A model generated the notes under the pieces. It was given only the letters and a program-made list of their open reading frames with translations, was not told where the DNA came from and searched no databases. DNA of 28,846 bases, from IMG/VR virus record IMGVR_UViG_3300006192_000025, positions 1 to 28,846 of that record. The stretch is one strand, 5' to 3'. Positions 4,724 through 26,142 of the stretch are shown one piece after another. Source of the DNA: a virus. The translations under genes were made by a program, and so were the position numbers. How positions within the stretch are numbered: position 1 is the stretch's first letter; each line of letters opens with the position of its first letter.

Positions 4724-7700
4724 TTATGGAATTAATTCAAACAGAATTTTTATTTTGTAGTTCTTTGTAATTAAAGGAAGGGCAATTCCTTTATAGGTTG
4801 TTGTTCCATCAACAATATCTTCGAACAATGTAATATCAGTGAAGTCCGTTTCGTCGTCAGTGTTGACAACTGTTGCTTTAGCTATTCTGTAGCCAGCAGC
4901 TGGAATCAAGGGTAGTTCGAACGTTCCGTCGTATTCGATGGAAGTTGTGATAGAATTTACCGTTTGGCCACTATACAGCATTGCTCCTTTTCCGCCTTCG
5001 ATATAAACATTTAAGTTACAAGGATATTGTAACAACCAGTTTTTATCGTTAACTTCGTCCTTAAGCGGTGTGCAGGAGAAATTGGTAATAACATGCTTTG
5101 TCTCAGTTTCGATAAGCTCTTCTTTTACACTGTAAAGAACCAGGTACTTGTCTGGACTTGCATCGGTAAGGGTAATATCAGTACCTGGAAGGGTGTCGCC
5201 AATCTCTTCAGCATATGGGACACCGGCAATTTTGTATTCAAATACTTCGTCTTCAGTTGTACCATCATGAAGAACGGCTTTAATCTGAGCGCCTGTTCCA
5301 AAAGAAGTAATTTCTGTGCTTGAAATACCGTACAGAATCTTTTCTCCATCTCCAGCAGTAAACCCTGAAATCATAAGATGAGACTTTGTTGTGTCGGCCT
5401 TTTCTGCGCCTTGTTCTAGGACAACTCCAGTGGTTGCCAGAATTGGAGTAGTTAAGTCGCCTTCATATTCGCTAGTGTTGATAACTGCGAGCTGTACCGG
5501 TACATAGTCTGATTTGGTTGCTTCTGTTCCAACCCATGCGGAATCGGGAACGATACTCCAGTAAACACTACAGCCATTGGTTGTTTTGTCTCTTGGAATA
5601 ATATTCTTATCTACTGGCCACCAAGCTTCTTCGGCTAATTTACCAAGCTCGCTCATGGCAATCTTAAGAATTAACTCTTCGTCAGAGTAGTCTGGTTCAG
5701 TTTCTTTTTTCTTAATTGCAACACCGTAACGAGAGTTCGGTGAATCGCTAAGGGGGGAGAATGGAGCGGAGACCGGGAAGTATACAAATGTTTCTTCGTA
5801 TTCGTTCGGGTCTTTCTCGAAGTCTTTATTGATAACCAGTTCATCAAGTGCATATAAACTTGAGCTGTCAATAACAAGTAAATCACTGAGCGTTCCTCGG
5901 GGTCCATCATTACTGTGAGTAACTTTAATTCGGTCAGCGTAATACTCGCCCGTGTAGCTTGACTTACCGTACATGACCTTACTCATGTATTCTTCAGTTG
6001 TAGCAAACATCATATGGTGTCGTTGGTAGTAAGCTTTAGACCGGGTATGATACATCATGATTGAAGTAACACCGTCCGAAGTATTAATACCATAGTCGTT
6101 AATCTTATCAACATCAATTACGTTACCAAAGACATCTCGTGAGACGCCGCTATTAATAACGAATTTTTCTTGATAATAACTGAAGCACACAAAAATCGTG
6201 TAAGTTTCGTCGAAGTTTGTATAACTTGGGTCAACGCTGAACTGTAATAGGTCTGCCTTGCCGTCGCTCATGATAAAGTTTCGCTTGTAGGCTGACATAA
6301 CTGGAGTGACTGGTTTTCCGGCTGCGTCAAGGATAACGTATTTTGGCCATTTTTCACGGTTAAAATAATTCTTATCGGTCAATTGCACGTAATAAACGGG
6401 ATTATTACTGCAAGGACTGTTCCAGGCACAATCATCTTTGATAAAGTTAGAAAAGGCTTCTACATCATAAGTATTGTCTCTTAATTCGTCAGCGCTCATT
6501 GAATAGTTACCCATATCATAGGTAATTTTTTCCATTGTCAGACTTGTATTACATGGTTCTGTGGAAGATGATGTAAATAAGGCAAAGTTACCAGCGGTAT
6601 CGTTTAAGGAATTTTCGAATGAATCGATTTTTCCACAATAACAGGCTGAAATTAAATGCCGGTCTCTCTGGTAATCTAATGATGGATTTCCCATAACAAC
6701 CACACTAAATCTATCGTTATTGGTATTAATCCAGTAACGCATTTTAGTATCAGCATTAAGACCAGAAGTTTCTAATGGCACAAATACGGTTCCGTCATGA
6801 ATACTTGAGATGCTCGGGTCAGTATCGACTGAATCAATCATGATTTCTTCGAAGTCTCTAAACCATGACAGTTTAGACCAAGGAGAGATATGAGAGTTCG
6901 TCTGAACGATTTCACCACTTGAGTTATACACGTTATCCATTGGCCCGCTACCGTCTTCGTTAATACGGTCAAACAATCGCATTAAAACGTGATGATTATT
7001 CAGCATGGTAATCCGGTTAGGAATAACATCATTACCGCCAACCTCGTATGCATAACGAACGACCATAACGCCATCAGTTGAGGCCTCGAAGGAAATACTG
7101 TCATCAAAGATAATACGTTGGTTGTCAGTATGATAAAGGGTGGTACTTAGTGGAATGTAAATACCATCAAGATAAAACTCTGGAGTCAGGTCTTCGATAG
7201 GTACGCTTTTTACAATATATTCAGCGCCTTTTGCGATTGAATAAGTCGTCAGTTTTTTAAGGCCTTCGAAAATCATGGTATAAATAGCTTCTTCTTTTGT
7301 TATTTCGATAGTCATCGAGTTTAACAACGAATAAGTTTTAGGCTCAATACCTTCACCACCATCAAGAGTGTTTAAGAACAGCTCATACAATTCTGCATCA
7401 TCTTGTTTGATTTTTGCAAGATATGCGGCATTAATTGCAAGTGTGGTTGTTGCTCCGGTTTCTGACGGAACACTGAATGATGTATTGCCAAAAATATTGT
7501 TTAACTTACTTACGTAAGCGTCACATTCGGCATAGGTCAGTTCGACTGAGCCAATACTGGTATCGTCTTTCTTATCAACAGCACAAATCGGAGCAGTATA
7601 AATATACTCTTCGGTTTCTTGCTGCACTTTGAAAGAATTTTCGTACATCCCTTTGGTAATTAGTTTGGGAGTGATGCCTTGACGTTCGCAATCCAGTGGA

Positions 7701-8137
7701 TATTCTTCCGGATTAACGACATACGATGGTTTATAAATTTCAAGATACATCGTCAGCGATGCTTTGTTTGAATCTGAATCGACAGTTAAATCATCGATTT
7801 CTTCGTCACTTAATTCTTTTGGCGTTGTTGTCGTTTTAAGAATAACAGTATCTGCAATCTTTGCCACCTGATTGTCGATTTTGAGTTTATACTCCTCGGT
7901 TGTCAGGTTATCAAGGTCAATAGCTAAAGAACTATCGGGTTGTGGGAATACAATATCCCAATTCTTAGATTTAAGAATAAATGGTTCTTCGATGACGTTT
8001 CCGTCAACGTCTTTAACAGCTTTTGTTTTAACGCCTAATGCCAAAACCTTGGCAATTTCTTTTGGAAAATCTGAAGAAGAACATAAGCCTTCGTAATATT
8101 TAAAAACTTTATATTCTCCATTAGCATTTGCGGCCAT
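4724..8137 (-). CDS. Giant unrecognised structural-type protein (1137 residues)
   Basis: The start is an ATG with a strong Shine-Dalgarno (AAAGGAGGTAAATTAA). The protein is acidic and rich in Asp, Glu, Thr, Tyr and Ser, with no signal peptide or membrane helix. The N-terminal part (about 1-330) is mixed helix and strand. The middle (about 330-760) is rich in aromatic residues and Asn, as in folded virion proteins. The C-terminal third (about 840-1137) reads as several beta-sandwich-like segments, including a 'VYIEGGKGAMLYSGQTV' stretch typical of repeat-like Ig or adhesin modules. It lies downstream of the major capsid and Ig-like genes in the late cluster. A role in the neck, tail or outer surface is likely by context, but I recognise no family. 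Confidence 0.88.
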   Translation of the reverse strand: MAANANGEYKVFKYYEGLCSSSDFPKEIAKVLALGVKTKAVKDVDGNVIEEPFILKSKNWDIVFPQPDSSLAIDLDNLTTEEYKLKIDNQVAKIADTVILKTTTTPKELSDEEIDDLTVDSDSNKASLTMYLEIYKPSYVVNPEEYPLDCERQGITPKLITKGMYENSFKVQQETEEYIYTAPICAVDKKDDTSIGSVELTYAECDAYVSKLNNIFGNTSFSVPSETGATTTLAINAAYLAKIKQDDAELYELFLNTLDGGEGIEPKTYSLLNSMTIEITKEEAIYTMIFEGLKKLTTYSIAKGAEYIVKSVPIEDLTPEFYLDGIYIPLSTTLYHTDNQRIIFDDSISFEASTDGVMVVRYAYEVGGNDVIPNRITMLNNHHVLMRLFDRINEDGSGPMDNVYNSSGEIVQTNSHISPWSKLSWFRDFEEIMIDSVDTDPSISSIHDGTVFVPLETSGLNADTKMRYWINTNNDRFSVVVMGNPSLDYQRDRHLISACYCGKIDSFENSLNDTAGNFALFTSSSTEPCNTSLTMEKITYDMGNYSMSADELRDNTYDVEAFSNFIKDDCAWNSPCSNNPVYYVQLTDKNYFNREKWPKYVILDAAGKPVTPVMSAYKRNFIMSDGKADLLQFSVDPSYTNFDETYTIFVCFSYYQEKFVINSGVSRDVFGNVIDVDKINDYGINTSDGVTSIMMYHTRSKAYYQRHHMMFATTEEYMSKVMYGKSSYTGEYYADRIKVTHSNDGPRGTLSDLLVIDSSSLYALDELVINKDFEKDPNEYEETFVYFPVSAPFSPLSDSPNSRYGVAIKKKETEPDYSDEELILKIAMSELGKLAEEAWWPVDKNIIPRDKTTNGCSVYWSIVPDSAWVGTEATKSDYVPVQLAVINTSEYEGDLTTPILATTGVVLEQGAEKADTTKSHLMISGFTAGDGEKILYGISSTEITSFGTGAQIKAVLHDGTTEDEVFEYKIAGVPYAEEIGDTLPGTDITLTDASPDKYLVLYSVKEELIETETKHVITNFSCTPLKDEVNDKNWLLQYPCNLNVYIEGGKGAMLYSGQTVNSITTSIEYDGTFELPLIPAAGYRIAKATVVNTDDETDFTDITLFEDIVDGTTTYKGIALPLITKNYKIKILFELIP

Positions 8138-16335: not shown

Positions 16336-17364
16336 TTAGTTCTCCGAATTGTAGTTAAACGTTGAGTAAATATTCATTAGAAGGGCTTTTTCCTGCTCTA
16401 AAGAGGTTAATTCGGATAGATAATACGCATTTCCGGTAAACGCCTTATTTACGTTTACGATGGCTTCATTGAGCCGGTCTTTGTATTCTTTGGTTTTTCT
16501 TGCAATAAAAACAGAGTTTGTCGATGCATCTAAGACGGTATACATGCCATTAACGTCTTTACGTTTGTCATAATAATTGTATAAAGTCTGAGTCATAGTA
16601 TTGATAGATTGTTCTTCGTCATAGGCTGACTTATGATAATTCAAACTTTGGTTTGTTTCATCGTAAAGTTGTTTAATTAGGTCACCTTGTTCCTTCTTTG
16701 CTAGGGCGCTATCGGTACTTAATACAACTTCTGATAGATTAATCGCCTTTTCGTTAACATCGAAAGCATGGAGCGATACAGACCGATTAAGGATAGAGTC
16801 TTGTGATATCGCCAAGTAATTGATTTTATTTTGCTCATTGCCAACTTCATACTTCTGAATTTGTTTCAGATAATCAGCGTCTATCGCTTGCGCCTGTTCT
16901 GTCGTAAGGGCCTTATCGTTATAGTATAATTTCTTTAATGTATTATTTAGCAAGACCAGTCGTCGCCTGGTTGCGTTAAGCGTTCCGATTAATTCTGGAA
17001 CGATGCTGCCGGTAATCAGATTGCTATGGTAGTTAATAAAGGCATCGATATACTCTTTATTGTTACTTTCGACAGCACTCATTAGAGAAGATATATTCCC
17101 ATATTCGTTCCAATCTCCATCGACAAAGGATTTAGTGAGTTCATCCATTAATATTTTAATATTGTCGGTTACGAAATCCAGATTAGACAAAGCAACGCTG
17201 GGAAGATTTTGAGCAATACTGTTTAATGTTTTAGAAAACTTAACCCCATCATAATTGGTACTGGTAACTTGTTCGACTTCTGTCTGGGTAGCCACTTCTT
17301 TATGGTATTCCAGCTTTGGCTTGTAACCAATAATTGCGCCATCATCTCTTCGTTGATTTGTCAT
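16336..17364 (-). CDS. Unrecognised helical protein between terL and portal (342 residues)
   Basis: The start ATG shares a base with the terL stop codon (TAATG), and its Shine-Dalgarno (AAGGAGGAAATTC) encodes the last TerL residues, so translation is coupled. The protein is predicted to be almost entirely helical and soluble, with long charged stretches such as 'GTLNATRRRLVLLNNTLKKL' and 'ALAKKEQGDLIKQLYDETNQ'. There is no recognisable catalytic motif. Its place between terminase and portal suggests a packaging or portal-associated minor capsid role. I do not recognise the family. Confidence 0.85.
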   Translation of the reverse strand: MTNQRRDDGAIIGYKPKLEYHKEVATQTEVEQVTSTNYDGVKFSKTLNSIAQNLPSVALSNLDFVTDNIKILMDELTKSFVDGDWNEYGNISSLMSAVESNNKEYIDAFINYHSNLITGSIVPELIGTLNATRRRLVLLNNTLKKLYYNDKALTTEQAQAIDADYLKQIQKYEVGNEQNKINYLAISQDSILNRSVSLHAFDVNEKAINLSEVVLSTDSALAKKEQGDLIKQLYDETNQSLNYHKSAYDEEQSINTMTQTLYNYYDKRKDVNGMYTVLDASTNSVFIARKTKEYKDRLNEAIVNVNKAFTGNAYYLSELTSLEQEKALLMNIYSTFNYNSEN

Positions 17365-18140
17365 TAGAATTTCCTCCTTTGGTAAGTTGCAGAACGCTTA
17401 TTAGTAGTTTGTTTTTGAATATTAATCACACCAACAACTCCATATTGACTACTTGGAGCTATCTTACCCAAGGGCATCGGTTCTTCTGATTCACCAACTA
17501 AGATTCGGCTTTTTACATCGACATCCCGTTTATCAAGCGTACCAATAAAGATAGTCTTAACCGAGAAGACTTTCTTGAGGAGCTGGCCGTACTTTTGCTC
17601 AAAGATAAGCAGTGCTAAGTTCATTGAGTCAATTGCATGTTCATTTTCATCAGTAAAGACCGGTAAGCCGGTAGAACTAATAGACTTCACTCGATATTCT
17701 TCAAGCTGTTCTATCATGGTTCTGTCTTTAGGGTCTAGGATAACCTTCCCTTTTTCAAATAGATTGACAGAGTTGTTAACCATAAAAGGTTTGATATGTT
17801 TGGAGTCTTTCTTACGGGTATACGGGTCAGTAACATCAATCTTTTGAGAGAATTGGTAACCGACAACTTTTTCGGCCAGTCCGGAACTTGGATTTGCTTC
17901 GCCATACTTATGAAGCATTTCTAGTTGGACTTCACCATAGCCACGGTCAACCGCAATCCAGTCGAACTGATATTCATCGTTTAAAGCAATGATTTTGTTC
18001 ATGGCGTTCACATAAGTAAATTCAGAACGGGCAATTTCAATTCTGAACATAATTTTAAAGACAGGGACGACCCGGCCCTCTGAGTCCTGATGGAATCTAT
18101 CAAATTCCATACATACCATGTTAGTGGCTGCGGAATATTT
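17364..18140 (-). CDS. terL: Terminase large subunit, exon 2 (nuclease domain)
   Basis: This segment continues the terminase after a group I intron. It starts at the AAA codon after the predicted intron-ending G, reading KYSAATNMVCMEFD, so that the joined protein reads GVDWD-KYSAATNM (636 residues in all). It carries the rest of the RNase H-like nuclease. 'DWIAVDRGYGE' supplies a catalytic Asp (about residue 443 of the joined protein), and 'EHAIDSMNLALL' (Asp about 549) is the usual C-terminal acidic motif. The reading frame extends upstream to an ATG at 18206, but those 22 codons are intron hairpin sequence, not exon. It overlaps the next gene by one base. Confidence 0.85.
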   Translation of the reverse strand, partial: KYSAATNMVCMEFDRFHQDSEGRVVPVFKIMFRIEIARSEFTYVNAMNKIIALNDEYQFDWIAVDRGYGEVQLEMLHKYGEANPSSGLAEKVVGYQFSQKIDVTDPYTRKKDSKHIKPFMVNNSVNLFEKGKVILDPKDRTMIEQLEEYRVKSISSTGLPVFTDENEHAIDSMNLALLIFEQKYGQLLKKVFSVKTIFIGTLDKRDVDVKSRILVGESEEPMPLGKIAPSSQYGVVGVINIQKQTTNKRSATYQRRKF

Positions 18141-19508
18141 CAATTTCTGTTGCAATATAACCGTTTCCGTTATATTTCTATCATCTCTGATAGTTACTGA
18201 TGACAATTCAGTAATGAAATTCAGACTATATCTTTAACTCTTGTATACTGTTACCATATATAAGAGTAGCAGGTGCTTTGTTACACTTGTAACTCATGGA
18301 TTTTCTCCATGGCATGTTAATGCTGATACTCGCTTCGTATATTTATATTTCAATAAATATCTTATTTTCAAACCGCCTAGATTCTATCTATTTATATATT
18401 TCTATAAGTGCGGTTGTCTAGCTTTTTCTAGTCGTTGAACCTTCCTCATTTAAACACATATGAGGCTCGGCTGCCATTATAGGATAACCTCTATTTTGTA
18501 ACTTATTACCATCCGATAGGAATTAGCCTATCTGCTCATCTATTAGATTATTGTGTTTTTCTAATAGGGCGGTATTACAAACTTAACGAGAGATTCCCGG
18601 CAATTCTCCTGCTTTTTCTATGTACGTTGCCGCACAAGGGGACACTTAATTGCAGCGTCAAAAATATCTTTTTTTCTTTGCATATATATATTAGCATCAT
18701 CGTACAGATAGTGATAAATAAGAATCATTGCTTCGTCACTTCCTGCTTCTAATGTTGCAATATGAGACCTTTGTTTTAAAATATACAAATTTGTTTTATG
18801 AAGTCGTTTTTGTATCTCTACTAACATTTCTTTTCCGCCTACTATATTAAACGTTGGTTTATTGTTACTAATAGATATACATCCATCGCCATCAAAATAT
18901 CCACGAATAAAATGAGAGATTAAATGATTTGGAACAGAAGTAGGAAAACAACATTTCAATGATTTTCTTTCCGTTACTCCATGACTTATTAAATCTAAGC
19001 ACATTTTTGTTGAGTTTATTTTTAATAACGATACTTCATATTTTTGTTGTATTATTTTATCTTGAATTTTATAACTTGAATTTATGCATTTCTGAAACTT
19101 TTCTAATGTGTTTTTATCTTTTGTTGCTAGATTTATTTGTAGACGATGACTATGTTTGTCCGACCCTCGATACACACATCCGTCAGCCATTATAAATCCT
19201 AGCCAATAAGCTTTATCTTCTGTATTAATAGTTTCAAAGTAAGACTCATCATAGAAATGTTTTCTAGCTCCTTGAGAATCAACGTTTCTTTTAATATTGT
19301 AACAATTCATTAATGATGTTACCGTTTTTACGTTTACTCCATAATATTTTGCTAACTTATTCATAGAATTCATTTCTGCATATTTTTCTTCAAGTTGTTC
19401 TTTTGTTGCAAAGATATTTCTAACTCCAGCCATGATATAACCTCCTAGTATTTTTATTTAATACTATTTTATTATGCATGGTGTGGATTGTCAAGCTGCT
19501 TTCATTTT
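18141..19508 (-). mobile_element. Group I intron interrupting terL, with a homing endonuclease gene in its first loop
   Basis: The minus strand shows group IA-type core elements in order. A P element AATTGCCGGGAA lies at about 18595-18606, an R element GTTCAACGACTAGA at 18427-18440, and an S element AAGATATAGTC at 18224-18234; R and S form P7. Three hairpins follow before exon 2, including one closed by a GAGA tetraloop and an 8-bp one (AATATAAC/GTTATATT), fitting P9-type stems. Exon 1 ends GGGAT, which pairs with GTCCC at 18639-18643 to give the canonical U-G at the 5' splice site. The intron ends in G at 18141, also canonical. The endonuclease gene lies between the 5' splice site and this guide sequence, that is, in the P1 loop. 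Splice sites are predicted, not shown. Confidence 0.85.
18618..19433 (-). CDS. LAGLIDADG homing endonuclease encoded in the terL intron (271 residues)
   Basis: The start is an ATG after CTAGGAGGTTATATC. Residues about 1-50 contain a helix-turn-helix-like segment ('KLAKYYGVNVKTVTSLMN') typical of DNA-binding modules attached to such enzymes. Two LAGLIDADG-type motifs are visible: 'WLGFIMADG' (77-85) and 'FIRGYFDGDG' (175-184), each with an acidic catalytic residue. This is a single-chain enzyme that should cut intronless terL alleles and promote intron spread. Its last codons overlap the ribozyme: the Lys-Cys-Pro-Leu-Val codons contain the GTCCC guide that pairs with exon 1, and the P element follows the stop codon within about 15 bases. 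Family assignment is confident; the target site is inferred. Confidence 0.9.
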   Translation of the reverse strand: MAGVRNIFATKEQLEEKYAEMNSMNKLAKYYGVNVKTVTSLMNCYNIKRNVDSQGARKHFYDESYFETINTEDKAYWLGFIMADGCVYRGSDKHSHRLQINLATKDKNTLEKFQKCINSSYKIQDKIIQQKYEVSLLKINSTKMCLDLISHGVTERKSLKCCFPTSVPNHLISHFIRGYFDGDGCISISNNKPTFNIVGGKEMLVEIQKRLHKTNLYILKQRSHIATLEAGSDEAMILIYHYLYDDANIYMQRKKDIFDAAIKCPLVRQRT

Positions 19509-20642
19509 ATCCCAGTCGACACCAAGAATACGAATATTTTGACCCTGAGTCTTTTTGAGATAGGCTTCTCGTTCGTCTTTTGGCCAGTTGGTAATATACT
19601 TGTGTTTGATTCGAGCGCCTTCGGCAATAGCTTCGTTGATGTATTTCTTTTGATATACACCCATTTCTTCTTCGCCAAATTCAGCCATAACTTCTTGAAT
19701 ATAACGCATTTCAGACAACTCTTCTCGGATATCTTCGAGATAAGTCTGTAGTGTATCCGGATTCGTTTTAAGTAGTTCTTTATTAACATTGGATGGCGCA
19801 TAAATCTCTGTCCACCCATTTCCTTCGCCGACAGTCTGTTCTTCTATCTCATAACCACTGAACATATTGTTTTTAATGTCATGTTGGGTTGGGGTATACT
19901 TCTTAGAGGCATTATTGCACCAACGATAATATTCTTCATGCTTTCCGGATGGGGTCGAGGCACAAATAAGCCGGATTCGTTCCGGAGCTTCATTTCGAAT
20001 ATTAATAATATTAGTAATTTGGTTTGACCCAATATAATCACATTCGTCAAGAATAATAACATCCGCACGTTGTCCACGAGTAGAGTTACCGCCACCAGAA
20101 GAGTTGTTCGCTCCAGCGGTAAGGCCTAAAATATTACTAACAATACCATTGACTGTAAAACAAATATTATGATGAACGTCCCGGGAGATTAATCCTTTTA
20201 ATAAAGGAGAGACTTCAATAAACTGATGAAGTCTCTTAAAGATTAAATCGATTTGAGTTTCATAAGGTGTCGCTATAATAATGTCATATTGTGGATTCGG
20301 GCCTTTGTTGTATTGAGTATAAGCAAACCATAGAATCAATACGCACATGTCGTCTGTTTTCCCAAGCCGACGACCTAACCGAAGGACAAGCTTTTTAGAC
20401 TTTTTACCTTCGGTTAGAATCGCAAATTGATAATCCCGGGCTTCCCAGTCAAGATAAACTTTTGCCCAAAGTACCGGATTATCGGTTACGATGTACTCAA
20501 GGGCTTCGCTTTTGCCCATAGAGTATTGTGACATAACAAAGTTAACTCGTTTATCAAGTTGTTCGTCCATAGGTAATAGTAATTGTATTAAACTGTCAAT
20601 CTCTGAATCACTAAGCTCGATGATTGTATTACTAGCTGCCAT
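19509..20642 (-). CDS. terL: Terminase large subunit, exon 1 (ATPase domain)
   Basis: The ATG at 20642 follows an AGGTG leader and lies 7 bases after the upstream stop. Walker A is 'LRLGRRLGKTDD' (Lys95, Thr96). Walker B is 'DVIILDEC' (Asp199, Glu200). The coupling motif is 'CASTPSGK' (227-234). The exon ends 'RILGVDWD' (Asp376 and Asp378), the first acidic motif of the nuclease. Without splicing, the frame would run only four more codons past exon 1 (K-M-K-A-A) to a TGA at about 19493, giving a protein lacking most of its nuclease. TerL forms the packaging motor on the portal and cuts concatemeric DNA. The joined length of 636 residues is within the family range. The gene follows the cassette of small hydrophobic proteins. 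Confidence 0.9.
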
Positions 20643-20649
20643 GCGACAC

Positions 20650-20883
20650 CTACTTCCTCATTATTTTGGCAAGAGCGAGGCCTGTCCCACTTACGCCAGC
20701 ACCTATTCCCATTCCAATTAAGCCATCTTTGACTCCAACGCCTAGCCCCCCAGCTAATTGCTGAGATACAGGCAGGCCTTGCGCTTCAAGGTTTTCGCTT
20801 TCAGTTAAAGCACCATAAGCCGTTCCGGAAATCGCTCCGGTAGTAAGAGCCGCTTTAAAAATAGGGTGTAATTTCATTTGCAT
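20650..20883 (-). CDS. Small Gly/Ala-rich membrane-type protein (77 residues)
   Basis: The start is an ATG after AGAAAGGAGAACGACT. Two hydrophobic Gly/Ala-rich segments are visible: about residues 9-25 ('FKAALTTGAISGTAYGAL') and about 44-73 ('AGGLGVGVKDGLIGMGIGAG' and on). Small residues at regular spacing resemble glycine-zipper helices that pack in membranes. The protein ends KIMRK, with positive charge. It directly precedes terL. No family is recognised; a holin is conceivable, but the company of similar proteins suggests a minor virion or DNA-ejection role. Confidence 0.75.
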   Translation of the reverse strand: MQMKLHPIFKAALTTGAISGTAYGALTESENLEAQGLPVSQQLAGGLGVGVKDGLIGMGIGAGVSGTGLALAKIMRK

Positions 20884-20897
20884 AGTCGTTCTCCTTT

Positions 20898-21329
20898 CTA
20901 ATATCTGTCCGCACTTCTAAAATAAGTCCGGGCTTCATTTCCAAGCGCTGATTGAATTGCTGTTCCATTATTGCGAATAGCGTTAAGACTTCGCTGACGC
21001 ATGGTGTATCCAGGTTTTGACATTTCAAAATAACCAGAGCCAAAATTACCAGCTCTTGCATATGCATCACCCATTTGTTTCGCTGAATGTTCGCCTGAAG
21101 CACTAAGTAAAGTCCCTCCAACTTGAACAGCGGCAACTGCAATACCCCAACCACCTAAGGCTTCGTACATTACAAATGTTCCAACCGCCTTTGCTACCGA
21201 AATAGCCTGACTATCTCCTTGCTCTCTGGCTGCTTTGTAGTCAGAGACCCCTCCTGCAACATTAATTGCATCGAAAGCTAAAGACATACCTCCTGCGCTT
21301 TTGGCCGCCTTGATTACTTGACTAATCAT
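20898..21329 (-). CDS. Gly/Ala-rich hydrophobic protein, probable minor virion protein (143 residues)
   Basis: The start ATG sits two bases after the upstream stop, with GGAGGTAATTAAAG before it. A hydrophobic stretch of about residues 46-78 ('AVGTFVMYEALGGWGIAVAA' and on) could span a membrane once or form a helical hairpin. The C-terminal part is polar, with a 'TMRQRSLNAIRNNGTAIQSA' segment followed by LGNEA that looks conserved in character. No signal peptide is evident. It belongs to the run of small hydrophobic genes before terL. A role inside the virion is inferred; no family is recognised with confidence. Confidence 0.78.
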   Translation of the reverse strand: MISQVIKAAKSAGGMSLAFDAINVAGGVSDYKAAREQGDSQAISVAKAVGTFVMYEALGGWGIAVAAVQVGGTLLSASGEHSAKQMGDAYARAGNFGSGYFEMSKPGYTMRQRSLNAIRNNGTAIQSALGNEARTYFRSADRY

Positions 21330-21331
21330 CT

Positions 21332-21757
21332 TTAATTACCTCCCATGCCGTACAGTGCGGCTATCATGCCCGGGTTAGCTCCAAAGTCATCGATTTTACT
21401 GGTCAATGATGTATCCTGTAAAGCATCGCCAGCCATTTCAGAGAATGCTTCATAGTCACCACGAGAAGCTCGCTTCATTGCTTCGACTCCCCCGGTGTTA
21501 AAGGCATCGGTCATTCTGGCCATGCCATCACCGTAAGAAATTTCTCCCATTTGGGACTTGGAACTTGTACTGGCCCCGCCTGAGATTAAACTTGCAGTAG
21601 TCATGACACCAACTGCTGCCACTCCACCTTTTAAATTAACTTTTCTAGGCACAAAAATCGAAGATAGACCGCCACCGTTATCTATGTTATTAGGTTGTGT
21701 CATGTTTTTACCAAGCGAACCCAATCCTTTAAGAATCCGTTTCGTCATTCCCGCCAT
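21332..21757 (-). CDS. Gly-rich small protein with one hydrophobic segment (141 residues)
   Basis: The ATG at 21757 overlaps the end of the upstream gene by 29 bases in another frame and has a good Shine-Dalgarno (GGAGGTAATTCCG) inside that gene. A basic N-terminus (MTKRILKGLGSLGKN) is followed by a Gly/Ala-rich hydrophobic segment at about 44-61 ('GGVAAVGVMTTASLISGG'). A soluble Asp/Met/Ala-rich C-terminal part ends in 'GMIAALYGMGGN'. The mix of overlap and matched Shine-Dalgarno implies coupled translation. Function unknown; grouped with the other hydrophobic cassette proteins. Confidence 0.78.
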   Translation of the reverse strand: MAGMTKRILKGLGSLGKNMTQPNNIDNGGGLSSIFVPRKVNLKGGVAAVGVMTTASLISGGASTSSKSQMGEISYGDGMARMTDAFNTGGVEAMKRASRGDYEAFSEMAGDALQDTSLTSKIDDFGANPGMIAALYGMGGN

Positions 21758-22550
21758 CGGAATTACCTCCTTGTACTACTTCTTGTATTAATTCTTCAAC
21801 GACTTCCGCTTGTTCAATTATTTCGCCGTCGTCAGTAAAAGAAATATCGCTAACGTTAATAATCTTATGCGACTTTTCCATTTCTTTAACCTGCTGGAAT
21901 AATTTAATCGCTGCATCGGAAGCTGTTTCGCTGCGTTTATCAGCAGCTTTATCTTTCCGGGTCGAGTTTAATTGATTAAGTATCTTAATCTTTTTGTCCT
22001 GAAGGCTTAATAAAAACTCTGTCTCCGGAGAAACAATCTTGCCATAATAGGGTTGGCATTTTTTATCGATATCTAATAAGGTATCAGCCATGAAGTCCCC
22101 ATTTAAGGCTATTTTGTTTTCAGCCCGAAGCATTTGTATTTCCATGTTAACCAAATCTTTAATAAGTGTAGCGTCAACAAGGTCTTTCGCTTCGATTACG
22201 TCATTAACAACGCTGATTTCAAAATGTTCGCACCACTGGTCGTATCTGGCCAGGATTGCGGCAATCTCCATTGGGCATCGCCGTCCTACTTTTCGCTGGC
22301 GTTTACTGACCATGCATATATCCGTATATACGCAGTCAACGCCTTTACATATAATAGGAACAGAGGCAAACATTCCATGCCTTGATGAATAGGCCCGACT
22401 CATATTGCTGATTTCTTTAACAACAGCAGCATCAATTCCCCATATCGAAGCCGATACCTCGTTGCCCTCTTTCCCGGCTAAGTCCGGGAGTGTATTATCA
22501 ATCCCGAACTCTACTATTTCATTAACATTAATCCCACCAGCTTCATCCAT
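21729..22550 (-). CDS. Four-Cys protein, candidate small terminase or packaging factor (273 residues)
   Basis: The start is an ATG after ACGAGGTGTCCCA. Residues about 60-110 contain Cys68, Cys73, Cys79 and Cys92 in the pattern C-x4-C-x5-C-x12-CPME, followed by helical 'IAAILARYDQWCEHFEI'. This could bind a metal ion. The rest is mostly helix, with an acidic C-terminus rich in Glu, Asp and Gly. From memory, proteins with a similar Cys cluster ending in CPxE are found near terL in other phages and are sometimes called small terminase. No clear helix-turn-helix is visible, so I give this as a possibility only. The gene lies three genes upstream of terL. Confidence 0.8.
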   Translation of the reverse strand: MDEAGGINVNEIVEFGIDNTLPDLAGKEGNEVSASIWGIDAAVVKEISNMSRAYSSRHGMFASVPIICKGVDCVYTDICMVSKRQRKVGRRCPMEIAAILARYDQWCEHFEISVVNDVIEAKDLVDATLIKDLVNMEIQMLRAENKIALNGDFMADTLLDIDKKCQPYYGKIVSPETEFLLSLQDKKIKILNQLNSTRKDKAADKRSETASDAAIKLFQQVKEMEKSHKIINVSDISFTDDGEIIEQAEVVEELIQEVVQGGNSDGGNDETDS

Positions 22551-22565
22551 TGGGACACCTCGTTT

Positions 22566-23129
22566 CTATAGAAATGGAATACCTACGATATTCTTCTGGC
22601 CGTAATTGTCTGTTGTTAGATTTCCACCTGATAAGTAACGACTACCAACAGCAGCGGCTGTATAAGTTCCGGCAGCAGCTGCCATCCGAGTGTGATTTAT
22701 CTTTTTATCCGGAGAGCTAAAGTAAGCCTGTGGATAATTTGCATACTTTTCAAGTTTTGAGGCGCTTTGTAAGACCGTTGAAGCATCTTCACTGTTTAGG
22801 ATGCTGTCAGAATGTTCTTTTGCATTTTTTAAAATGTCCTCAGTTGGATTATCGGTCGCTTTTTTTATCTGCTCAGACACAGAATCAATGGCGCTATGGG
22901 CGTCTTTACCGCTCATTTTACCGGCAATGTCATTAATGACATTTACGTCTACATCATTTGCCTCAAGCGCTTGACGTAAACCTCTTTCAGCCACGGTGTT
23001 CTGATACTTCTGGCTGTTTTTAAGCAAGCCTGCAACAGTGTTTTGTATCTCGCCTTCTGCTGGTTTTAACTTACCAAGTAATGACTCTGCTACTTCCTGG
23101 ATTGTACTTCCCCATGCTTTTCCGTTCAT
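22566..23129 (-). CDS. Helical protein with C-terminal Ala/Gly-rich hydrophobic stretch (187 residues)
   Basis: The start is an ATG after GAAAAGGAGAACCATT. Residues 1-140 are polar and helical ('LLKNSQKYQNTVAERGLRQA'). Residues about 149-162 are 'MAAAAGTYTAAAVG', a short hydrophobic segment, and the C-terminus is polar and hydrophobic (GIPFL). This layout, a soluble N-terminal part and a small-residue hydrophobic tail region, recurs in neighbours at 23919 and 24521. Function unknown; a minor virion or ejection protein is possible. Confidence 0.75.
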   Translation of the reverse strand: MNGKAWGSTIQEVAESLLGKLKPAEGEIQNTVAGLLKNSQKYQNTVAERGLRQALEANDVDVNVINDIAGKMSGKDAHSAIDSVSEQIKKATDNPTEDILKNAKEHSDSILNSEDASTVLQSASKLEKYANYPQAYFSSPDKKINHTRMAAAAGTYTAAAVGSRYLSGGNLTTDNYGQKNIVGIPFL

Positions 23130-23159
23130 AATGGTTCTCCTTTTCTTATTAATTAAAAT

Positions 23160-23510
23160 TTAAACAATACTTTTGCCGCCTCTGTTCCGATAACCTTCTT
23201 CCGGTGTTTTACCATAAACGATTTTGTTTTTCATCTTTTTATAGATATTCCCGTTCGTAAATATATTATTGTTGTCAATAATTGTTCTACCATAAGTGTC
23301 ATATCCGGAAGCAGCCATTTTAGCTTGAGTGTTTACATCTCCAGACGTAAGTGAGTCATAGGTCTGGACTTTTCCACGATACTTTGCTCTTTCTACGTCA
23401 ATTTCGACACGAATTTGTTTAGATAACTCTGCTTTAATTTCGGTATTGCCGAGGGCCGCAACAATAAACTTAACGATTTCCTGACTTAACGCTTGGCCTG
23501 GTATCCACAT
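23160..23510 (-). CDS. Unrecognised small protein (116 residues)
   Basis: The start is an ATG after a strong GAGGAGGT Shine-Dalgarno that also encodes the end of the upstream gene. An N-terminal amphipathic helix ('WIPGQALSQEIVKFIVAALG') is followed by a polar, basic protein with many Lys, Arg and Asn residues ('IYKKMKNKIVYGKTPEEGYR'). There is no membrane segment or catalytic motif. It is the main non-hydrophobic member in the middle of the cassette. Function unknown. Confidence 0.72.
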   Translation of the reverse strand: MWIPGQALSQEIVKFIVAALGNTEIKAELSKQIRVEIDVERAKYRGKVQTYDSLTSGDVNTQAKMAASGYDTYGRTIIDNNNIFTNGNIYKKMKNKIVYGKTPEEGYRNRGGKSIV

Positions 23511-23514
23511 ACGA

Positions 23515-23919
23515 CTACCTCCTCATACCCATCATCATACGGCGCATATCTTGTTCGTCTTCTTCGTGTTGTATTACCGCTCCGACGCCAGCTCCCATGG
23601 TCGCACCCATTACTACGTTTTGATTTTTCCTTAAAAAGTCACCAAATCCAGAATACCTCATTCCGTTTCTGGCATTTTGGCCAGCTACGGCCATTGCGCT
23701 ATTTGCCGCTCCCGGATTAGTATATTGATTTTCATTTCCGCCGAATGTAAAATTGATATCTGGGTCACGAGGGGCTTCACCGTCTACCGTGAATTCGACA
23801 CTATCAACTGTTTGAGGTTTCTTTTTGTTTTTTGGGGCTTGTGGTCTTGCCTTGCGTCCTTGCCATCCGAGCTCTTCGGCTACATCGTCAATAAACTTCC
23901 CAACTGATTTTATCTTCAT
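23515..23919 (-). CDS. Small protein with Gly/Ala-rich hydrophobic segment and Met/Arg-rich tail (134 residues)
   Basis: The start is an ATG after GAGGAGGAAATACA. Residues 1-35 are basic and Pro/Lys-rich. A hydrophobic Gly/Ala segment lies at about 101-116 ('NVVMGATMGAGVGAVIQ'). The tail 'DMRRMMMGMRR' is unusual, partly because its codons form the Shine-Dalgarno of the next gene. It is in the cassette of similar small hydrophobic proteins. Function unknown. Confidence 0.75.
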   Translation of the reverse strand: MKIKSVGKFIDDVAEELGWQGRKARPQAPKNKKKPQTVDSVEFTVDGEAPRDPDINFTFGGNENQYTNPGAANSAMAVAGQNARNGMRYSGFGDFLRKNQNVVMGATMGAGVGAVIQHEEDEQDMRRMMMGMRR

Positions 23920-23936
23920 TGTATTTCCTCCTCTTG

Positions 23937-24521
23937 TTATTCATCGTCATCATCGAATAAATTTGCCCCTAAGACACCAACGCCACCGGCAATACCGGCT
24001 GATATAAACGGATGAGCTTTAACCATGTCAAGAATTCCAGACTTGTCTGGACCAGCAATGTCTTGAGCGTTTTTAAGATTTTCAGCATGAGGTAAATCAT
24101 AAGGTAATGCAACCTCTTGTCGAACTCGCTCAAACTTTTCTTTTTTGGCGCTTGCTCCGCCGACACCTTGTCCATCCTGCTCATAAACAACGCCACCATT
24201 ATCCGCAAGAGGCGTTGGGTCTTTAGGAGGTTTCGTCGCATTAGAGTCTACATTAATCGCTTCATCTACCGCTGAATTTCCACCAGTTCTGGCTTCTTTG
24301 AGTTTTTCTTTGTAGGTCCTGTCAAGATTGACACTATTTTGAACTCTTTGGTCAATTTGCCCGATTCGTTGCCCAGTTTGTTCAGCAATATCACTTACTC
24401 TCTTTTCGACTTCTTCGATACTTCCTGAGTTAGTAAGTCTTTCAATACTGGCTCTTCCTTTCCCCACCATTTTTACGCCTGCTTTTTCAACGCCGCCAAT
24501 TACTTTTTGCACTAAAGCCAT
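23937..24521 (-). CDS. Protein with helical body and C-terminal membrane-type anchor (194 residues)
   Basis: The start is an ATG after AGAGGTGTAGTGAA. Residues about 30-80 form a charged, coiled-coil-like helix ('IEEVEKRVSDIAEQTGQRIG'). The middle is Gly/Asp/Pro-rich and likely disordered. About 170-188 is a single Gly/Ala-rich hydrophobic segment ('PFISAGIAGGVGVLGANLF'), followed only by DDDDE. A soluble head with a C-terminal small-residue anchor fits an inner virion or ejection protein that inserts in the host membrane, but this is inference. Confidence 0.78.
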   Translation of the reverse strand: MALVQKVIGGVEKAGVKMVGKGRASIERLTNSGSIEEVEKRVSDIAEQTGQRIGQIDQRVQNSVNLDRTYKEKLKEARTGGNSAVDEAINVDSNATKPPKDPTPLADNGGVVYEQDGQGVGGASAKKEKFERVRQEVALPYDLPHAENLKNAQDIAGPDKSGILDMVKAHPFISAGIAGGVGVLGANLFDDDDE

Positions 24522-24525
24522 TTCA

Positions 24526-24828
24526 CTACACCTCTACTTGGCAATATTGGTCTTTGATTACCTGATTCATTTTATCCATACATTCTGGGCAGCAGATTCC
24601 AGGGTTTTCTTTACGCCGGATAAAGTATTGACCACAACATTGCGGACAAATTACTTTTTTGTCTTTACGGTTATCCATATTGTACTTGGGAATGCTGTTT
24701 TCGTTTCGAATACGTTGGACACTTACTCGGTTATACTTAATAACATCGGCAATTTCGCTGTCTCTAAGTCCTTCTTCCTGAGATAAGCGTCGTATTTCGT
24801 TAACTATAATTGGACTGGTTGAACTCAT
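24526..24828 (-). CDS. Small HTH plus zinc-ribbon protein (100 residues)
   Basis: The start is an ATG after AAGGAGGAAATTAAA. Residues about 8-45 look like a helix-turn-helix ('LRDSEIADVIKYNRVSVQRI'). Residues 61-83 hold two Cys knuckles, CPQC (61-64) and CCPEC (79-83), typical of a zinc ribbon. This suggests a DNA-binding protein. It could be a late-gene regulator, or a terminase small subunit if DNA recognition for packaging lies here. It is second in the leftward cluster. Motifs are visible; the role is open. Confidence 0.82.
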   Translation of the reverse strand: MSSTSPIIVNEIRRLSQEEGLRDSEIADVIKYNRVSVQRIRNENSIPKYNMDNRKDKKVICPQCCGQYFIRRKENPGICCPECMDKMNQVIKDQYCQVEV

Positions 24829-24850: not shown

Positions 24851-25033
24851 TTACTGACCCAATTGATTCTTGGCAATCTGTTCGGCCAGCCTTTTATTAC
24901 GCTCCATCATATCGTCATTCAAGCTATTTAACATGTCGTTGATATTATCTTGCGACCCATTGGTGGCTTCTCGGGCCGTATTTTTTACAGCCTCGGCCGC
25001 CTTTCCGGTTCCTTTTTTTAAAAAACTAAACAT
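24851..25033 (-). CDS. Small charged protein, first gene of the leftward cluster (60 residues)
   Basis: The ATG at 25033 follows AAAGGGGG at a longer than usual spacing. The protein is 'MFSFLKKGTGKAAEAVKN' and a polar, helical remainder with no membrane segment. It would be the first gene transcribed from the candidate leftward promoter at about 25100. Because it is short and its Shine-Dalgarno spacing is poor, the gene call is moderate. Function unknown. Confidence 0.62.
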   Translation of the reverse strand: MFSFLKKGTGKAAEAVKNTAREATNGSQDNINDMLNSLNDDMMERNKRLAEQIAKNQLGQ

Positions 25034-25593: not shown

Positions 25594-26142
25594 ATGAAAG
25601 CATTAGAACCTAAAGACTTTAAGTCCTTTGTTGATGAGGAGCTTAAGAAAGAAGTACGTTGGAATGACACATTGGATGATGCATTATTTGAGACTATGGT
25701 AAATAACACACAGAATGTTATTTGCACACAAGGCATAGCAGTGCAAGAGCCTAGTACTGTACCCATTAATGATACTGAGTACACCATGTCTTTATTATAC
25801 AACCCTTATGCAGTCATGTCAGTAGGGTGTATGGTAGCAGTGTGTTACTTTAATGCTATGAATCAAATGGTTATCTTTGTTGATGATAAGTTCATGTCCT
25901 TAAGTCATAATAGCCAAGCCTTTACTATACAGCATGAGATAGGCCACATACATAATAAGCACTACAGCATCATGGGCAATCGTTACTTAGGTGAAGAACA
26001 CGCTGCTGATAGCTATGCCTGTACTCAAACAAGTAAAGATATAGGGATAAGTGCCCTTAGGGAGATTAAATCTGTATTAAAGGGCTTTGGATATTGGCGT
26101 TCAAGAAGAGAGCTAACCAAACGCATTAACTGTATTAAGTAG
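25594..26142 (+). CDS. HEIGH zinc metallopeptidase, M48-like pattern (182 residues)
   Basis: The start is an ATG after CAGAAAGGCTTTACT. The zinc site is 'TIQHEIGHIHNKHYS' (HExxH at 114-118), and a third ligand is probable in 'GEEHAADSYACTQ' (Glu134 or Glu135, Asp139), a gluzincin arrangement like that of M48-type peptidases. There is no signal peptide and no long membrane helix, so it probably acts in the host cytoplasm. At 182 residues it is a minimal catalytic domain. As the first rightward gene in a separate transcription unit, it may act early against a host protein, or it may process a phage protein. The fold is confident; the substrate is unknown. Confidence 0.85.
   Translation: MKALEPKDFKSFVDEELKKEVRWNDTLDDALFETMVNNTQNVICTQGIAVQEPSTVPINDTEYTMSLLYNPYAVMSVGCMVAVCYFNAMNQMVIFVDDKFMSLSHNSQAFTIQHEIGHIHNKHYSIMGNRYLGEEHAADSYACTQTSKDIGISALREIKSVLKGFGYWRSRRELTKRINCIK

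Follow-up and report, generated by a model that had tools for sequence, protein, structure and literature searches.

A conserved cassette of glycine-zipper proteins beside terL in large phages, possibly packaged in the head and ejected with the DNA

So far, most descriptions of proteins ejected along with the phage genome concern short-tailed phages with Gram-negative hosts and the phiKZ-like giants. Here we analyze a 28.8-kb virus fragment (IMG/VR virus record IMGVR_UViG_3300006192_000025, positions 1 to 28,846; the whole stretch is called the window) which ends short of the tail genes and carries, directly before the terminase gene terL, a cassette of small genes (g1 to g9), several of which encode proteins with Gly/Ala-rich, glycine-zipper-like hydrophobic segments. 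The described systems with which it is compared are the T7 gp14-gp15-gp16 and P22 gp7-gp20-gp16 ejection proteins, the jumbo myoviruses phiKZ, SPN3US and 201phi2-1, in which many head proteins are thought to be ejected (PMC5694885), and the MuF polymorphic toxins and polyvalent proteins, which are head-borne, have exchangeable enzyme domains and are delivered with DNA (PMC5512222, PMC5576092).

As with T7 and P22, the cassette comprises several adjacent late genes, and its products share with P22 gp7 and T7 gp14 and gp16 marginally hydrophobic Gly/Ala-rich segments of equal strength on a crude scale; location in the head would be a further likeness. In contrast to those ejection proteins, it lies as a block before terL, has conserved C-terminal tags and gave no profile match: the g2, g3, g4 and g5-tag profiles found nothing in the T7 and P22 ejection-gene regions, used as negative controls, while phage ME3 was matched. 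T7 and P22 are short-tailed, whereas the cassette phages include isolates with contractile tails, two of the three isolates being on Gram-positive hosts. With neither a sequence relationship nor a short tail, the cassette is not a member of the podovirus ejection family; that it would work like podovirus ejection proteins is our best inference. With respect to the giant phages, no homology to their inner-head ejection proteins was found, and their targeting relies on N-terminal propeptides that are cleaved, whereas the conserved element of the cassette proteins is C-terminal. Exchangeable enzyme domains like those of MuF and polyvalent proteins are seen in some relatives of the cassette, but no MuF or other known delivery domain was recognized by Pfam in that of the window, where the candidate delivery module would be the C-terminal zipper and tag and the N-terminal part is variable.

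A gene order kept next to terL in about 25 phages and in the isolates KLEB27-3 and MTATph1, C-terminal tags conserved above the rest of the protein, exchangeable N-terminal parts and enzyme domains in relatives together point to a set of head-packaged, membrane-active proteins which would leave the virion with the DNA, a reading that we put at close to an even chance.

A preliminary description of the window had named six neighboring genes, each said to encode a short protein with a glycine-zipper-like hydrophobic segment, of no familiar family, directly before packaging genes. All six are present as open reading frames (ORFs) on the minus strand (starts 20883, 21329, 21757, 23129, 23919 and 24521, here g1, g2, g3, g5, g7 and g8), and two further genes for soluble proteins, g4 and g6, belong to the same block. 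This late operon is tight, with neighboring genes separated or overlapping by no more than a few tens of bases (the g3 start overlaps the g4 end) and a clear AGGAG-like ribosome-binding site at nearly every start, and terL begins at 20642, 8 bases past g1.

The N-terminal half of terL retrieved 21 IMG/VR loci at 62-100% identity, several of them on contigs of 208-218 kb, and the window most resembles jumbo phages. Among isolates, Moorella phage MTATph1 and Bacillus phage KLEB27-3 were related through terL and portal, and Acinetobacter phage ME3 through the portal only. When the terL loci were searched by tblastn, g2, g3, g4, g6 and g9, often with g5 and g1, recurred in order ahead of terL; no alignable full-length relatives of g7, g8 or g10 were found there except in an identical contig. 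In KLEB27-3 the order is gp005 (g4), gp008 (g3), gp009 (g2) and then terL, and MTATph1 has CDS0247 (g4), CDS0248 (g5 type), CDS0251 (g3) and CDS0252 (g2), with terL at the opposite end of the linear record. When viral contigs were scanned with the g2 profile, 32 and 17 loci were obtained, and about 25 distinct phages, repeats removed, show the arrangement G4-(variable zipper proteins)-G3-G2-terL. The most widely kept protein is g2, single-copy in all 11 relatives whose genomes were searched in full or nearly so; g5 has two paralogues in several relatives, and g1 is found in some (L003, L013) and absent from others. One match was obtained in bacterial genomes, to a short contig assigned by binning to a Cellulosilyticum metagenome-assembled genome. 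These data indicate that the cassette, first noticed in the window, is not peculiar to it but is a block conserved beside terL in large phages, mostly of Gram-positive bacteria.

A shared design in unlike sequences had also been claimed, and the zipper proteins do share a layout: the N-terminal part varies, a Gly/Ala segment follows, and most families finish with a conserved C-terminal end of their own. The C-terminal consensus is TMRQxxxxxIxxNxxNxRSxLGxEAR for g2 and GxxDIAGIPFI for g5; g3 ends in GAxGDLVFALHNxR in distant members and YGMG or YGMR in the closest, and g8-type proteins in a hydrophobic helix followed by DDDD. Pairwise identity in the last 40 residues against the remainder was 63% versus 31% for g2 and 47% versus 18% for g5, while that of the g8-type C-terminal end was 29% versus 19%. 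In two relatives searched whole, the tag motifs were confined to the cassette. Positional and C-terminal equivalents of g8 in relatives differ in length (185-544 aa) and agree in their C-terminal end, and two large proteins of 864 aa (locus L009) and 687 aa (L016), both inserted between g2 and terL, have only their C-terminal ~220 residues in common (40%, E = 3e-29). By these comparisons the N-terminal parts are exchangeable and, in some relatives, large.

Two observations on these proteins are recorded separately. The 864-aa protein (L009 6684-9275) has an HGSEEG...SCYGG arrangement which is reminiscent of caspase-like peptidases, with no Pfam match. A hairpin-like zipper motif, GG..GG..D(D)(D/E)(T/S)(I/V)(L/I)GGAxKGAxxGG, recurs in otherwise unlike cassette proteins of L050 (3640-4089), L010, L016, L022 and L009.

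Enzyme domains were found in more distant relatives. In loci L050 and L053, presumably of marine source judging from the IMG sample numbers, the protein ahead of g2 is 760-1713 aa long, with zippers, and the large proteins carry an SNase domain (E = 6e-12) and protein-kinase-like domains of the Bud32 type (E = 1.3e-7); a search for isolates of this probable marine group was without success. In phage ME3, the gene immediately preceding terL encodes a distant g2, a 546-aa 'putative membrane protein' with the g2 tag at its end (TMRQMAISKLAKSGLNDRATLLGNESR; g2-profile hmmsearch, E = 7.6e-7), and the g4 profile matches ME3_9 (local hmmsearch, E = 1e-4). In the ME3 protein before g2, a hydrophobic helix lies C-terminally and the start is DEDD-exonuclease-like (FDTETTG; Pfam RNase_T at just E = 0.04). 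The ME3 annotation cites genes of Bacillus phage 0305phi8-36 for ME3_9 (YP_001429602) and TerL (YP_001429607); the virion proteome of that phage has been published (Thomas et al. 2007), with 55 genes for virion proteins according to PMC2147016. Between the domains of the large marine-type proteins (L053 1316-6454, L050 55-2334) lie repeated linkers of ~40 residues, DDxYNTIEGL..G..R...TxFGSGxxG, which may be units of processing or packing.

Gly/Ala segments were defined as 20 residues with at least 8 Gly+Ala including 3 Gly, a mean Kyte-Doolittle value of at least 0.7 and at most 2 charges. A hydrophobic segment in each of the six named proteins was borne out under this strict filter for four (g1, g2, g3 and g8), and in a weaker form for g5 and g7, whose segments are shorter (15-residue uncharged run, 47-60% Gly+Ala). 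In the window 4/9 cassette ORFs passed versus 1/23 others (p = 0.015); corresponding figures were 5/8 versus 3/219 elsewhere in G001, a complete 208-kb relative (p = 6e-7), where the non-cassette ORFs that passed include those of 1,925 and 1,990 aa, and 3/4 versus 9/197 in relative G006 (p = 6e-4). Chance or a composition artefact was ruled out by this enrichment, the conserved gene order and the profile searches with negative controls. On a crude biological-hydrophobicity scale, with our own weighting, the cassette segments score 2.7-5.5, compared with 3.8, 5.6 and 6.9 for P22 gp7, gp16 and gp20 and 4.3 and 2.3 for T7 gp14 and gp16; on such a scale they are predicted to be membrane-compatible but marginal. 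An N-terminal amphipathic helix in several cassette proteins (window p = 0.008; G001 p = 0.05; G006 not significant) is only suggestive of a second common signal.

No window cassette protein matched PHROGs, Pfam or NCBIfam at the curated cut-off, and a PDB sequence search gave no match, in keeping with the earlier statement that no familiar family is present. The one notable match below threshold is that of the g8 C-terminal helix to the glycine zipper of DUF883 (PF19029; E = 0.0018, 18.4 bits versus a Pfam cut-off of 27); the zipper alone matches, and the resemblance is composition-driven. Matches of g2 members to phrog_33643 and phrog_6785 (E = 0.003-0.2) were dropped as too weak. A fold search with the low-confidence model of g4 gave no PDB fold match, only insignificant prefoldin-like matches (E ~0.6), and neither sequence nor that model matched TerS; a role of g4 as small terminase, scaffold or chaperone is possible.

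If the proteins are ejected, we propose that all of them would be made late, together with terL, and that the family-specific C-terminal tag would dock each at its own prohead site, probably round the portal/core axis. The glycine-zipper helices would be kept soluble in the head by mutual packing. At infection the proteins, preceding or accompanying the DNA, would travel through the contractile tail and enter the cytoplasmic membrane, where they would form a small hetero-oligomeric conduit or plug, and in some relatives N-terminal nuclease or kinase domains would act on the newly infected cell. Given such domains in the variable parts of some relatives, cargo delivery may matter as much as channel building. 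A more specific proposal is a portable delivery module, in which C-terminal tags and glycine-zipper helices would sort mixed proteins, some with exchangeable N-terminal enzymes, into contractile-tail phage heads and the host, as a multi-component ejection system in Gram-positive phages; this we consider somewhat unlikely. Were ejection correct, long-tailed phages of monoderm bacteria would also eject a set of membrane-active proteins, the C-terminal tags would add new candidates to the signals that load proteins into phage heads, and early effectors could be sought among the exchangeable N-terminal domains. As two isolated phages that grow on laboratory hosts carry the cassette, the question is directly testable; a literature search found no publication on KLEB27-3 or MTATph1.

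Several observations weigh against ejection. Two sheath genes are annotated in each Gram-positive isolate, and it is not evident why a phage with a contractile tail would need an additional channel, as podoviruses do; according to a review (PMC8954989), phi29-like podophages that infect Gram-positive bacteria lack ejection proteins. In the KLEB27-3 GenBank record the cassette genes gp005-009 are 'hypothetical' and many domainless neighbors 'structural protein', which counts mildly against packaging and would argue against it if the labels are based on virion proteomics. Small hydrophobic or Gly/Ala-rich proteins yield few peptides and are often missed by mass spectrometry. The difference in identity between tag and remainder is small in g3 and absent in g6, Pfam recognized no enzyme domain in the window's own cassette proteins, and the AlphaFold (AF2) models are poor (pLDDT 62 for g4, 55 for g2). 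Holins (lambda S, T7 17.5) and one TerL stretch fall in a similar range on the crude scale, so propensity alone cannot tell ejection proteins from holins. Of the membrane-active ejected assembly first suggested, the conserved multi-gene cassette and a propensity like that of P22 gp7 and T7 gp14 and gp16 stand, while the contractile tails and the missing structural labels do not favor it.

The main rival is that these are accessories of head assembly or packaging which are not ejected, the zippers forming or anchoring an internal core, or a membrane platform nucleating the portal or prohead, and g4 serving in one of the roles named above. T4 proheads form on the membrane, and the direct linkage to terL, a soluble g4 in nearly every cassette, a single g2 in every genome examined and the unlabeled KLEB27-3 genes all suit such accessories, as does the finding that no other small terminase candidate was recognized between g9 and terL. 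Left unexplained are the exchangeable N-terminal parts and the nuclease and kinase domains of relatives, and g4 is without a fold match to a solved structure; we judge this explanation unlikely, though by no means far-fetched. Late membrane effectors that are never packaged, acting in superinfection exclusion, envelope modification or, like holins, lysis timing, would also be small, hydrophobic and late, with a crude membrane propensity close to that of lambda S and T7 17.5. At least five different such proteins per phage, in strict order and with tags conserved past genus level, make this distinctly unlikely, as do the large soluble parts in relatives. No lysis gene was recognized in the cassette, the best holin profile match was g8 to phrog_2879 (E = 0.45, not significant), and the family match and endolysin proximity that mark holins were not found. 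Finally, zipper and tag might serve mainly for delivery, with the variable N-terminal domains being the point, as in MuF toxins and polyvalent proteins, and a channel secondary or absent. N-terminal parts that swap while C-termini stay constant, and nuclease, kinase and possible exonuclease domains in relatives, would suit modular injected effectors of this kind; the window proteins, however, are small with no recognizable enzyme domain, the most conserved members g2 and g3 are almost wholly zipper and tag, and enzyme domains occur in few loci only, and we regard it as improbable.

Features of the cassette and the adjoining part of terL, in window coordinates
Feature	Position	Strand	Description
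terL N-terminal (ATPase) part	19491..20642	-	PHROG terminase matches; relatives 62-100%; synteny anchor
g1	20650..20883	-	77 aa; a short polar turn joins two Gly-zipper stretches (GAISGTAYGA ... GVGVKDGLIGMGIGAGVSG)
g2	20898..21329	-	143 aa; Gly/Ala hydrophobic middle and conserved C-terminal tag
g2 C-terminal tag	20916..21041	-	GSGYFEM..GYTMRQRSLNAIRNNG...SALGNEAR; pairwise identity, tag hmmsearch
g3	21332..21757	-	141 aa; hydrophobic segment rich in Gly/Ala; C-terminal end of GAxGDLVFALHNxR type, as YGMG in the window
g3 C-terminal tag	21335..21400	-	21-locus alignment; hmmsearch
g4	21729..22550	-	273 aa; soluble, with a helical hairpin and four conserved Cys; conserved best of all cassette proteins
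g5	22566..23129	-	187 aa; variable N-terminal part, Gly/Ala segment, conserved C-terminus (SGGNLTTDNYGQKNIVGIPFL)
g5 C-terminal zipper and DIAGIPFL-type tag	22569..22688	-	last-40-residue pairwise identity
g6	23160..23510	-	116 aa; soluble, conserved (SGYDxYGRTI ... MKNKIxYGK)
g7	23515..23919	-	134 aa; Gly-zipper close to C-terminus, then acidic/Met-rich tail; in this species only
g8	23937..24521	-	194 aa; C-terminal Gly-zipper helix and DDDDE; N-terminal part without alignable relatives
g8 C-terminal helix and acidic tail	23940..24035	-	HPFISAGIAGGVGVLGANLFDDDDE
g9	24526..24828	-	100 aa; HTH and zinc-ribbon-like; first gene of the cassette in most gut relatives

The operon opens with a 60-aa ORF (24851-25033) whose amphipathic basic start resembles several cassette proteins; its relatives were found only in an identical contig. 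The terL gene itself (17364-20642) is split after the GVDWD motif of the nuclease domain by a LAGLIDADG endonuclease ORF (18618-19433; PF14528, 2e-12), with no match to Rfam intron models, and an ORF of similar type and position interrupts terL in L046 and L098. A tRNA scan of the window found none. On the plus strand, a divergent gene (25594-26142) has an HExxH-type (QHEIGHIHNKHY) IrrE/M78-like peptidase signature, sub-threshold at E = 0.002. A 1137-aa protein (4727-8137) matches phrog_35367 (9e-122), to which no function is assigned there, and phrog_9485, a virion structural protein (7e-24).

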